A model generated the notes under the pieces. It had not been told where the DNA came from, searched no databases, and was given only the letters and a program-made list of their open reading frames with translations. From a bacterium (GTDB taxonomy: Bacteria; JAMCPX01), in the NCBI GenBank assembly GCA_021792615.1, contig JAJYUJ010000035.1:1-24321 (forward strand): a stretch of DNA of 24,321 nt, given 5' to 3'. The translations under genes and the position numbers were made by a program. Positions 1,215 through 5,926 of this stretch are shown piece after piece; position 1 is the stretch's first letter, and the number at the start of each line of letters is the position of its first letter.

Positions 1215-1587
1215 GTCATTGCGAGGAAGGGAATGACGAAGCAATCTACTGATCGATAAATGGATAATCAATATTTTGTTTATATAATGACAAATAAAAA
1301 CAATACGACTCTTTATACAGGAGTAACATGTAATTTACAGAAAAGGATATATGAACATAAAGAAAAATTGGTTGATGGGTTTACTAAAAAGTACAATATT
1401 AACAAATTAGTATATTATGAAATATTTGATGATGCGTACAATGCAATTTCAAGAGAAAAGCAGATTAAAAGTGGCTCAAGGCAAAAGAAGGTTAATTTGA
1501 TTGATGGAATGAATAAAAAATGGAAGGATTTATATGCTGAATTGTAGAGGAGAACGTAGGGATTGCTTCGCTATCGCTCGCAATGAC
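1215..1587. mobile_element. Palindromic element carrying a GIY-YIG nuclease gene in its loop
   Basis: The left arm, 1215-1249 (gtcattgcgag ... cgaagcaatctac), and the right arm, 1556-1587 (gtaggga ttgcttcg ... ctcgcaatgac), are inverted copies of each other. The same two arms form the 87-bp hairpins at 5675-5926, where only a ~20-nt loop separates them. Here the loop is replaced by a GIY-YIG gene bounded by the same 'ctac' and 'taggg' loop edges. The interior is clearly more A+T-rich than its neighbours. The layout suggests a mobile or formerly mobile unit, with the short hairpins as its gene-less relatives. Movement is inferred, not shown. Confidence 0.6.
1260..1547 (+). CDS. GIY-YIG domain endonuclease (small, stand-alone)
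   Basis: This 95-residue protein is almost entirely one GIY-YIG nuclease domain of the YhbQ/COG2827-like group. The first motif is VYI at 7-9 and the second is LYTGVT at 18-23. Conserved R29 lies in NLQKRIYEHK, and E66 in AISREKQIK is the likely metal-binding acid. The C-terminal KKWKDLYAEL is typical of the full-length family, so the gene looks intact. Family members are DNA nucleases or predicted ones, but the function of most stand-alone copies is unknown. No Shine-Dalgarno precedes the ATG. A later start would remove the first motif. Base composition is much more A+T-rich than the flanking transporter genes. With repeat arms on both sides, this points to acquisition together with the repeats. 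It interrupts the permease-TPR operon. Confidence 0.85.
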   Translation: MDNQYFVYIMTNKNNTTLYTGVTCNLQKRIYEHKEKLVDGFTKKYNINKLVYYEIFDDAYNAISREKQIKSGSRQKKVNLIDGMNKKWKDLYAEL

Positions 1588-1599
1588 CGGTACACGAGA

Positions 1600-1666
1600 G
1601 TCATTGCGAGGAACGAAGTGACGAAGCAATCTACACGCACAGGGATTGCCCGGCCGGGCTTCGACG
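1600..1666. repeat. Second, degenerate copy of the 'gtcattgcgag' palindrome
   Basis: The left arm from 1600 (gtcattgcgag ... cgaagcaatctac) is intact. The right arm at 1642-1666 starts gggattgcc but then diverges into cggccgggcttcgacg. The linker joining it to the preceding element (ccggtacacgaga) is nearly the same as the linker between the tandem units near 5750-5762. The two sites therefore share a tandem-array organisation. Confidence 0.6.
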
Positions 1667-2559: not shown

Positions 2560-2689
2560 CCCGTTTTCCCGGCTGGTCGTTACAAGAACTGAAATGATGA
2601 AGCAATCCATTTTTTCATATCCACCTGATATGGAGGATGACAGAGGGTTAACCCGAAAAAGGTGTTTGAAAAATAAGGAAGTTTATGCA

Positions 2690-3046: not shown

Positions 3047-3490
3047 TCACAATTTCTTTTGCTCTTTTAGCTTTCCCATAATTTCGCAAAATCTTTTTGG
3101 TGTAACAATTTCTATTCCTCTGAAGTTGTTTAAGTTTAATAAATGCGCATCACCGGAGATTATGTAGTCAGCTTTACCGGAAACAGCTGTAGCCAGAATA
3201 GTATTATCTGCGGGGTCTTCTTTTATAATGTTTAATGTTGAAAGGTTTTCTGCAAAAACAGAATACTTAAACAGATTTGATAGTATGTGATTTATATCTT
3301 CGTTTGTAAGTTTATAGTTTTTCTTTATCTTTGGGTAATGCAAAACTCTTTCCGCTTCTTCTATTGTTGCAAGTGATGTTATTATGACCACAAACGCATT
3401 TTCCCATAGCTTTATAACGTTGAAAGGGAATCCACTCCGCTGGATGATACCGCTTGTGAGAACATTGGTATCAATAACTACTCTATACAC
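3047..3490 (-). CDS. PIN-domain toxin (predicted ribonuclease)
   Basis: This 147-residue PIN-family protein is related to the COG1569-type putative toxins. Acidic residues expected of the metal-dependent RNase site are D7 (VVIDTNV), E44/E45 (ATIEEAERVL), D95 (EDPADN) and D114 (ISGDAHLL). It starts with GTG, and its first 8 bases overlap the end of the antitoxin gene upstream, which is typical translational coupling in toxin-antitoxin pairs. The toxin would cleave RNA when freed from its partner. The RNA target cannot be read from the sequence. The pair lies in a repeat-rich accessory patch, which fits horizontal acquisition. Confidence 0.85.
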   Translation of the reverse strand: MYRVVIDTNVLTSGIIQRSGFPFNVIKLWENAFVVIITSLATIEEAERVLHYPKIKKNYKLTNEDINHILSNLFKYSVFAENLSTLNIIKEDPADNTILATAVSGKADYIISGDAHLLNLNNFRGIEIVTPKRFCEIMGKLKEQKKL

Positions 3491-3749
3491 CCTTGCGTAC
3501 CGCCTTCATTGCCTCCTCAACATCTTTTTTTATACTTGCCGAAGAATATATTTTTGATCTGATATTATCAAAAATTGCCATATCGGTTTTTCTTTGCTTT
3601 CGAAGATTTTCGAACTCATCTAAAGAAATTAAAACAGCCATCGGTTTTTTGCCTCGCTTGATAATAAATTCTTGTCCCTTATAGTAGACTTCTTCAAGGA
3701 TTTCTCCTAAATTCCCTCTCATTTTTAAAGCAGTCAGGTCTTTTGTCAT
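3483..3749 (-). CDS. Phd/YefM-family antitoxin
   Basis: This 88-residue protein is read from ATG at 3747-3749, chosen because GGAGGT lies five bases upstream. An in-frame TTG at 3761 would place the start before that Shine-Dalgarno. The N-terminal half (MTKDLTALKMRGNLGEILEE, then a 'QEFIIKRGKKPMAVLISLDEFENL' type block) matches the Phd/YefM DNA-binding fold. The C-terminal half (DNIRSKIYSSASIKKDVEEAMKAVRKGV) would wrap the toxin. It presumably neutralises the overlapping PIN toxin and represses its own promoter. Confidence 0.85.
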   Translation of the reverse strand: MTKDLTALKMRGNLGEILEEVYYKGQEFIIKRGKKPMAVLISLDEFENLRKQRKTDMAIFDNIRSKIYSSASIKKDVEEAMKAVRKGV

Positions 3750-3769
3750 AGTTACCTCCAATTATGATA

Positions 3770-3928: not shown

Positions 3929-3985
3929 CCCCTCTTATGAGAGGGGAATAAAGAACTGGATTCCCGCTAAACCGGGAATGACAGA
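3929..3985. repeat. Two intergenic hairpins (cccctct...agagggg and ttcccg...cgggaa)
   Basis: A perfect 7-bp stem with a TATG loop at 3929-3946 is followed by a 'ttcccg-ctaaac-cgggaa' palindrome at about 3961-3978 ending in tgacag. The second belongs to the same dispersed family as 111-175. These and the next element fill the gene-free stretch 3798-4118. 3798-3920 shows nothing recognisable. Confidence 0.55.
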
Positions 3986-3997
3986 AGATAATAGCGA

Positions 3998-4118
3998 GGT
4001 TTACCCCGTTAGAGATTAATAAAATAAAATGTTTTATACGTACATAATTCGAAGTGTAAAAGATAGGAAATGGCATACAGTACTAATAAATGATTTATTA
4101 TCTCTAACGGGGTGAACC
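3998..4118. repeat. 121-bp element with 'ggttYaccccgttagagat' inverted termini
   Basis: ggtttaccccgttagagat (3998-4016) is complementary to 4100-4118 with one mismatch over 19 bp. It is the second copy of the element type at 2768-2862. The two share the terminal accccgttag and ctaacggggtgaac but not the interior. The right end stops one base before the ATG of the carboxyltransferase gene. Confidence 0.7.
4109..4114 (+). promoter_or_regulatory. Ribosome-binding site contributed by a repeat terminus
   Basis: The sequence aacggggtgaacc-ATG places GGGGTGA, a 6-of-7 match to the anti-Shine-Dalgarno complement GAGGTGA, directly before the ATG at 4119. These bases belong to the right inverted terminus of the 3998-4118 element. 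No other Shine-Dalgarno is near. This supports the start at 4119 rather than at a later codon. Confidence 0.5.
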
Positions 4119-5674: not shown

Positions 5675-5926
5675 GAGTCATTGCGAGGAATGAAATGACG
5701 AAGCAAACTACGGGCATACATAGGGATTGCTTCGCTATCGCTCGCAACGACCGGTACACTGGAGTCATTGCGAGGAATGAAATGACGAAGCAAACTACGG
5801 GCATACATAGGGATTGCTTCGCTATCGCTCGCAACGACCGGTACATTGGAGTCATTGCGAGGAATGAAGTGACGAAGCAAACTACGGGCATACATAGGGA
5901 TTGCTTCGCTATCGCTCGCAATGACA
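5675..5926. repeat. Three tandem 87-bp hairpin repeats
   Basis: Units begin at 5675, 5762 and 5849, a constant period of 87 bp, and are nearly identical. The differences are single bases, such as gaaatga/gaagtga and caacgac/caatgac. Each unit has a left arm (gtcattgcgag ... cgaagcaa), a ~20-nt loop (ctacgggcatacataggg) and a right arm (ttgcttcg ... ctcgcaacgac), so each can fold alone. They fill the spacer between the two carboxylase genes. Because 87 is a multiple of three, the repeats give apparent ORFs on both strands; these are not taken as genes. 5927-5967 is pyrimidine-rich and carries the next ribosome-binding site. Confidence 0.85.

Follow-up and report, generated by a model that had tools for sequence, protein, structure and literature searches.

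Does a small nuclease gene lying in the loop of a palindrome form one mobile element together with the gene-less hairpins that share its arms? The question is raised by a locus in the window, the whole bacterial DNA stretch of 24,321 nucleotides analysed here. It is probable that the window holds a REPtron-like selfish element, consisting of a GIY-YIG nuclease gene within an inverted pair of cognate REPs and of hairpin pairs without the gene. The pairing of the nuclease gene with a class of hairpin is strongly supported by the comparisons described below.

The gene unit and its repeat families

The gene unit, its neighbouring REPs and the solo hairpins occupy the following positions in the window:

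1215-1249, plus strand: left arm, a TGTC-tagged REP hairpin (REP core 1215-1246), sequence GTCATTGCGAGGAAGGGAATGACGAAGCAATCTAC, read directly
1260-1547, plus strand: GIY-YIG nuclease gene, an intact open reading frame of 95 aa (PF01541, E = 3.6e-17)
1556-1587, minus strand: right arm, an inverted REP hairpin (REP core 1561-1587), sequence GTAGGGATTGCTTCGCTATCGCTCGCAATGAC
1600-1631, plus strand: second left-type REP, directly 3' of the gene unit, its own right partner degenerate
2576-2607, plus strand: degenerate single REP of the gene-arm family (75% identity)
5677-5751: solo hairpin unit 1 (REP 5677-5708, inverted REP 5725-5751), read directly
5764-5838: solo hairpin unit 2 (REP 5764-5795, inverted REP 5812-5838), read directly
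5851-5925: solo hairpin unit 3 (REP 5851-5882, inverted REP 5899-5925), read directly

An earlier note on this DNA had placed the gene in the loop of a palindrome and described the same arms in solo hairpins; direct reading of both confirms this arrangement and its coordinates. The right arm reads GTCATTGCGAGCGATAGCGAAGCAATCCCTAC as its reverse complement. Each arm is a small hairpin in itself, and the gene therefore has a REP-like hairpin on either side while also occupying the loop of a large palindrome. The second left-type REP at 1600-1631, which is found in a relative (G004) too, makes the gene unit part of a short tandem array as well. The arms of the three 75-bp solo hairpins and their orientation are those of the gene unit; in the solos the REP cores are separated by 16-nt loops.

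PF01541 is the sole Pfam match of the encoded protein, which is single-domain and has little beyond the catalytic domain. The GIY-YIG active site is complete: among 89 arm-associated proteins Y8, Y19, G21, R29, H33 and E66 are invariant, and N85 is conserved at 98%. A search of the window against Rfam returned tRNAs only.

The arm pattern has 17 matches in the 2.54-Mb genome to which the window belongs, against none for the reversed control. This genome encodes five PF01541 genes in total. The UvrC gene and a UPF0213/YhbQ-like gene are both devoid of arms; a second GIY-YIG gene (L002) lies between GTCATTCCCG...CGGGAATCCA hairpins, and a third (L003) between ACCCCGTTAGAGAT inverted repeats. Short copies of the L002 and L003 repeat families are both present in the window. 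Two C4-type REPs (GTCATTCC...GGAATCCAG) at 110-137 and 3956-3983 are the source of open reading frames containing 'VIPAKAGIQ', and the arms of L002 belong to the same class. An inverted ACCCCGTTAGAGAT pair with an 83-nt loop (3998-4016 and 4100-4118) is located directly upstream of a carboxyltransferase gene; besides L003, the ACCCCGTTAGAGAT repeat bounds several genes of a separate clade (L030, L163, L175, L176 and L192). The GIY-YIG frame of L002 reads through its right arm (1771-1800, giving WIPTSVGMTE near the C-terminus), so that arm sequence is translated.

Cognate arm classes and empty sites

Solo copies have the same arm class as the gene in their genome, as a comparison of 145 Nostocaceae genomes shows. 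Genomes with a C1-arm gene (GTCATTGCGA) contain 32-161 C1 repeats, with a median of 50.5, and few of class C2; genomes with a C2-arm gene (GTCATTCTGA) contain 6-124 C2 and 0-8 C1 repeats; the median repeat numbers of gene-less genomes are 1 and 0 (Mann-Whitney against gene-less genomes, p = 1e-7 and 6e-6, uncorrected for phylogeny). A genome with one gene of each kind (G156) carries both repeats. The arm class at the gene predicts the genome-filling repeat in this family, in the manner of a double dissociation. About 17% of gene-less Nostocaceae genomes keep at least 20 C1 copies, which counts against the REPtron-like explanation: the abundance of arms in gene-less genomes suggests that repeats outlast a resident gene or move in its absence, or else that the gene was missed in draft assemblies.

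Arm class also follows protein clade. On a tree of 143 GIY-YIG proteins, which is short (96 columns) and leaves many inner forks open, arm class changes 28 times, against 65 when classes are shuffled. A clade of 98 rows (SH-aLRT 99) is nearly all arm-bearing, 13 of the 17 rows of the YhbQ-like group are without arms, and in a third group of 28 rows half have inverted repeats, either CCCCGT(T)AGAGAT-class arms or others. In two respects this goes beyond the earlier note: the arms are CGTC-tagged REP-type hairpins, and the pairing involves several arm classes and several protein clades. A contig of a member of Harrisonbacteria (G028; L162, 1-5042) contains two different GIY-YIG genes at most 2 kb apart, each with a different inverted repeat.

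Empty sites, for which the earlier note had proposed a search, were found at the window gene, at the window solo array and in Azospirillum. The genes flanking the window unit, encoding an ABC-2 permease and a TPR-like protein, abut in G006, G007 and G008; in G004 the gene unit occupies the same site as in the window, and G003 retains a broken remnant there. The remnant (L213), upstream of the TPR gene, consists of the GIY-YIG C-terminus and the right arm, the N-terminus being replaced by CTACCGCCTTCAAGGCGGTAG-containing sequence, possibly an IS200/IS605-type end. A member of another genus (G001) has, at the same junction, another GIY-YIG gene, whose arms differ and belong to the C4 class. The solo array site is bare in G005, G002, G007 and G008, and in G001 it is taken by a C4 hairpin pair, the class of that genome's own nuclease. 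In Azospirillum lipoferum a unit is situated between sufB and sufC; three close relatives are without it, hairpins included, and the 50-kb syntenic blocks contain hairpins at the gene locus only. In gene-less relatives of Shinella the site is too diverged for a clean empty-site alignment. Since the empty sites have neither gene nor arms, the two come and go together.

The joint absence of gene and arms bears directly on homing, in which REP hairpins pre-exist and a free-standing GIY-YIG gene invades their loops by cutting unoccupied hairpins, followed by double-strand-break repair. The fold is that of classic homing nucleases, the window protein weakly matches a group I intron endonuclease model (TIGR01453), and the gene occupies the loop of a hairpin found empty elsewhere. 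Fold and selfish distribution are indeed shared with the free-standing homing endonucleases of this superfamily (Seg type, catalytic domain of I-TevI). Unlike these, the present unit has no intron and no extra DNA-binding domain in its 95 aa, and it is bounded by dispersed hairpins and absent together with them. Homing is unlikely because relatives without the gene are also without hairpins at the site, so that the target is not intact in the empty sites; it also fails to explain why genome-wide repeat numbers follow the arm class.

A host function was considered as well, with a housekeeping or regulatory nuclease trimming REP hairpins as DNA or RNA, the REPs at its own gene serving autoregulation, and no mobility involved. 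The conserved hairpin structure and the location of hairpins in operons and after stop codons fit such a role, action at the RNA level is conceivable, and the UPF0213 relatives are standalone host genes. The UPF0213/YhbQ proteins (PDB 1zg2, 1ywl) are the closest solved relatives by sequence and of similar size, yet the window-type proteins form a separate clade and the UPF0213/YhbQ genes are mostly arm-less. We located all PF01541 genes of 25 homologue-bearing genomes and fetched most of them. An inverted-repeat score of at least 13 was reached by 49 of 91 small standalone GIY-YIG genes, a sample not fully independent in that it includes the loci that had led to these genomes, against 1 of 15 UvrC genes (Fisher p = 6e-4). 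A UvrC-like host gene was rejected on the mostly arm-less state of the UvrC genes. A host role in general is rather improbable in view of the patchy presence and absence between congeners and the disrupted remnants, namely that of G003 and a gene copy with an internal stop in G158. Homologues from different phyla are about 70-75% identical, which, together with the multiple classes per genome, looks selfish and horizontally mobile.

Element ends and distribution of the arms

An arm is built of Y-GTC, a basal stem, which in the window class is ATTGC/GCAAT, a small internal loop where GA faces GAA, GTG or GCG, and an apical stem that varies. From arm to arm the apical sequences are very different, yet the two halves of each match one another: 73% of positions pair within an arm, exchanging halves among arms lowers this to 44% (sd 1.8%), and none of 2000 permutations reaches 73%. 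The basal stems compensate between classes (ATTGC/GCAAT, ATTCT/AGAAT, ATTCC/GGAAT, ATCCT/AGGAT and ATCCC/GGGAT). Just outside Y|GTC, inverted-repeat pairing falls to about the random level in 44 gene units and 79 solos, and the hairpins thus form the ends of the element. At the arm ends of the gene units GTC is invariant, preceded by T or C in 80 of 88 cases. Outside the tag, the 44 gene units examined show neither a terminal inverted repeat (TIR) nor a visible target-site duplication, and no such duplication could be defined.

These ends set the gene units apart from the MITEs of DDE transposons, with which they have in common the short, non-autonomous palindromic repeats; the gene units are without TIRs beyond the tag and their nuclease is not of the DDE type. 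The gene might nevertheless be cargo, and the hairpins inner parts of ordinary DDE-transposase MITEs. Such MITEs exist: in G086 (L269, 1422-1552) a C1 hairpin lies in an IS630-like MITE of about 129 bp with the TIR AGTAnTnGGACA, a TA target and more than 20 near-identical copies, and the solos of this genome were accordingly rejected as recent REP insertions. Seven solo C1 hairpins of the window's own genome (L007, L008, L012-L015 and L017) are enclosed in larger palindromes with TIR-like ends of the type CAGGCTGTTGAAAAA, which probably represent another MITE family. Some solo copies are thus carried inside ordinary MITEs, a point beyond the earlier note, and the nuclease would not be the sole route of spread. 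As a general account, passage inside MITEs is very improbable. It was rejected in its pure form on the 44 gene units, which, like most of the 79 solos, show no inverted repeat outside Y|GTC, and MITE movement gives no tie between arm class and nuclease clade.

The generality of the arrangement was assessed on the 80 closest homologues, picked by protein similarity alone from contigs of one genome per species and coming from about twenty phyla. The earlier note had asked whether arms are paired around GIY-YIG genes above chance. They are, and in a fixed convergent orientation: under a strict motif, 53 of the 80 genes are enclosed by convergent arms on both sides, an arrangement seen in 0.04% of random intervals of the same length on the same contigs. 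The same note held that its proposal would fail if most homologues lacked arms; at least one arm-flanked side was found in 71 of 80, against 2.2% expected under the strict motif. Five homologues without the main arm class have variant arms (GTCATTCTGAG, GTCATCCTGAG or GTCATCCCGAAC). In the comparison of flanks, an inverted-repeat score of at least 15 was reached by 57% of genes and by 0.4% of random same-length intervals. Arms are certainly frequent in these genomes (378 matches to the pattern in 1.09 Mb, 1 to the reversed pattern), yet the notion that intergenic REPs are so common that small genes acquire copies on both sides by chance is refuted by the flank comparison and the random-interval counts, by the fixed orientation and by an arm density near the gene about 25 times that of the 10-kb flanks, which leave it a negligible probability.

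The phage collection contained no homologue, and the viral contigs one, also with arm-like sequence. The plasmid collection contains some misfiled chromosomes (PLSDB NZ_CP119140, NZ_CP119142 and NZ_AP026896 are, judging by their size, whole chromosomes of N. gonorrhoeae and Aeromonas caviae); a CGTC-type REP is found on at least one side at 16 of 16 GIY-YIG loci inspected in it. These include loci of Neisseria gonorrhoeae, Azospirillum lipoferum, Sinorhizobium meliloti and Novosphingobium aromaticivorans, and further loci of Shinella, Rhizobium, Aeromonas and Planktothrix. At the loci of Rhizobium tumorigenes and Photobacterium a REP was seen on one side only. In Azospirillum and Rhizobium the gene is positioned between two complete hairpin pairs and not inside one, which we count against the REPtron-like explanation. 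On a Planktothrix plasmid (L223) the neighbours of the GIY-YIG unit are an MmeI-type restriction enzyme gene on one side and the DISARM gene drmA on the other.

CGTC-tagged REPs and a possible mechanism

REPs are among the commonest bacterial repeats and have been split into GTAG-tagged REPs, which are accompanied by RAYT transposases, and CGTC-tagged REPs (Di Nocera et al. 2013, PMC3733652). The latter bear a CGTC, TGTC or CCTC tag, a stem beginning with AT and a CCA tail, occur as head-to-head dimers, and include the Neisseria dRS3 (dRS3/NIME) and Rickettsia RPE-4 and RPE-6 repeats; a dedicated transposase is apparently absent, and it was suggested that the enzyme is extinct or that many transposases serve (PMC3733652). 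Like CGTC-tagged REPs, the arms described here have an unpaired CGTC or TGTC tag at one end (in the plasmid examples), ATNNN/NNNAT stems, TC or TCCA tails and a head-to-head dimer arrangement. Examples from N. gonorrhoeae and A. lipoferum were among those recovered. In Neisseria the GIY-YIG gene stands among dRS3 repeats (ATTCCC(N8)GGGAAT, about 700 copies per meningococcal genome; PMC3898611), and the N. gonorrhoeae arms match dRS3 exactly. Unlike the published set, the arms found here have an associated enzyme gene. The four published CGTC families have stems of 8-9 bp and loops of 4-5 nt, a description that suits the C4-type arms. The C1 class of the window (GTCATTGCGAG...GCAATC) departs from all four: its basal stem has 5 bp, there is an internal loop, and the apical stem varies. 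Its arms would constitute a further class of the CGTC-tagged super-family.

The comparison with RAYT/REP systems drawn in the earlier note is supported. As in REPtrons, REPINs and the IS200/IS605-like TnpA-REP systems, a single gene lies between two inverted, tagged short hairpins, copies of these hairpins are dispersed in the same genome, also as pairs without the gene, the enzyme clade matches the hairpin class, and distribution is patchy. In contrast to these systems, the enzyme is a GIY-YIG nuclease and not a Y1 HUH transposase, the tag is CGTC or TGTC (Y-GTC) and not GTAG, and units occur also in many phyla outside Proteobacteria. The element works like a REPtron, yet fails two defining REPtron features, the HUH enzyme and the GTAG tag. 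For CGTC-tagged REPs, the meningococcal dRS3 among them, the GIY-YIG nuclease is the best candidate for the enzyme that they have lacked.

A REPtron-like element of this kind might operate as follows, with the GIY-YIG nuclease taking the place of the RAYT transposase. Extrusion of the hairpin, as a cruciform or on the lagging-strand template, would let the nuclease recognise the tag and basal stem (GTC-AT...) of its own hairpin class and cut at the foot; host repair would then place the freed or broken hairpin DNA at a new site, by copying or by joining. Full units, arms and gene together, would spread horizontally, and arm-only units would multiply in trans within genomes. Binding and cutting at the hairpin foot, the role of cutting in driving spread, and insertion of the copy by repair are inferred. 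GIY-YIG enzymes are hydrolases and not transesterases, so hairpin insertion is left unexplained, a point against this explanation. The earlier note regarded the gene unit as an autonomous copy and the hairpins as its non-autonomous derivatives. Their association, shared arm class and empty sites agree with this view, and mobilisation by the nuclease is the part that would follow from the proposed mechanism. That a 95-aa GIY-YIG nuclease alone mobilises the whole CGTC/TGTC super-family, comprising dRS3/NIME, the rhizobial and cyanobacterial repeats and the trans-phylum GTCATTGCGAG class, is a further reading, somewhat less likely than not.

The earlier note knew of no established mechanism joining GIY-YIG genes to the repeat. 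In line with this, a search of an open-access library, which leaves bioRxiv and most subscription journals outside its reach, returned no paper joining GIY-YIG nucleases with REPs (RAYT, dRS3 or palindromic repeats). CGTC-tagged REPs, one of the two super-families, had no enzyme assigned to them in 2013 (PMC3733652). With a cognate nuclease gene found beside them in about twenty phyla, the enzyme question can be put to a direct test that needs a single small protein and a single oligonucleotide. dRS3 would thereby gain an enzyme partner, and the known roles of GIY-YIG nucleases would be extended. If the proposal is true, the unit would be a self-contained prokaryotic mobile element with a hydrolytic nuclease as its sole enzyme, and not one based on an HUH enzyme, a DDE transposase, a recombinase or a reverse transcriptase.

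Elsewhere in the window, the minus strand encodes a PIN-domain toxin (3047-3490) with a Phd/YefM antitoxin (3483-3761), which together span 3047-3761.
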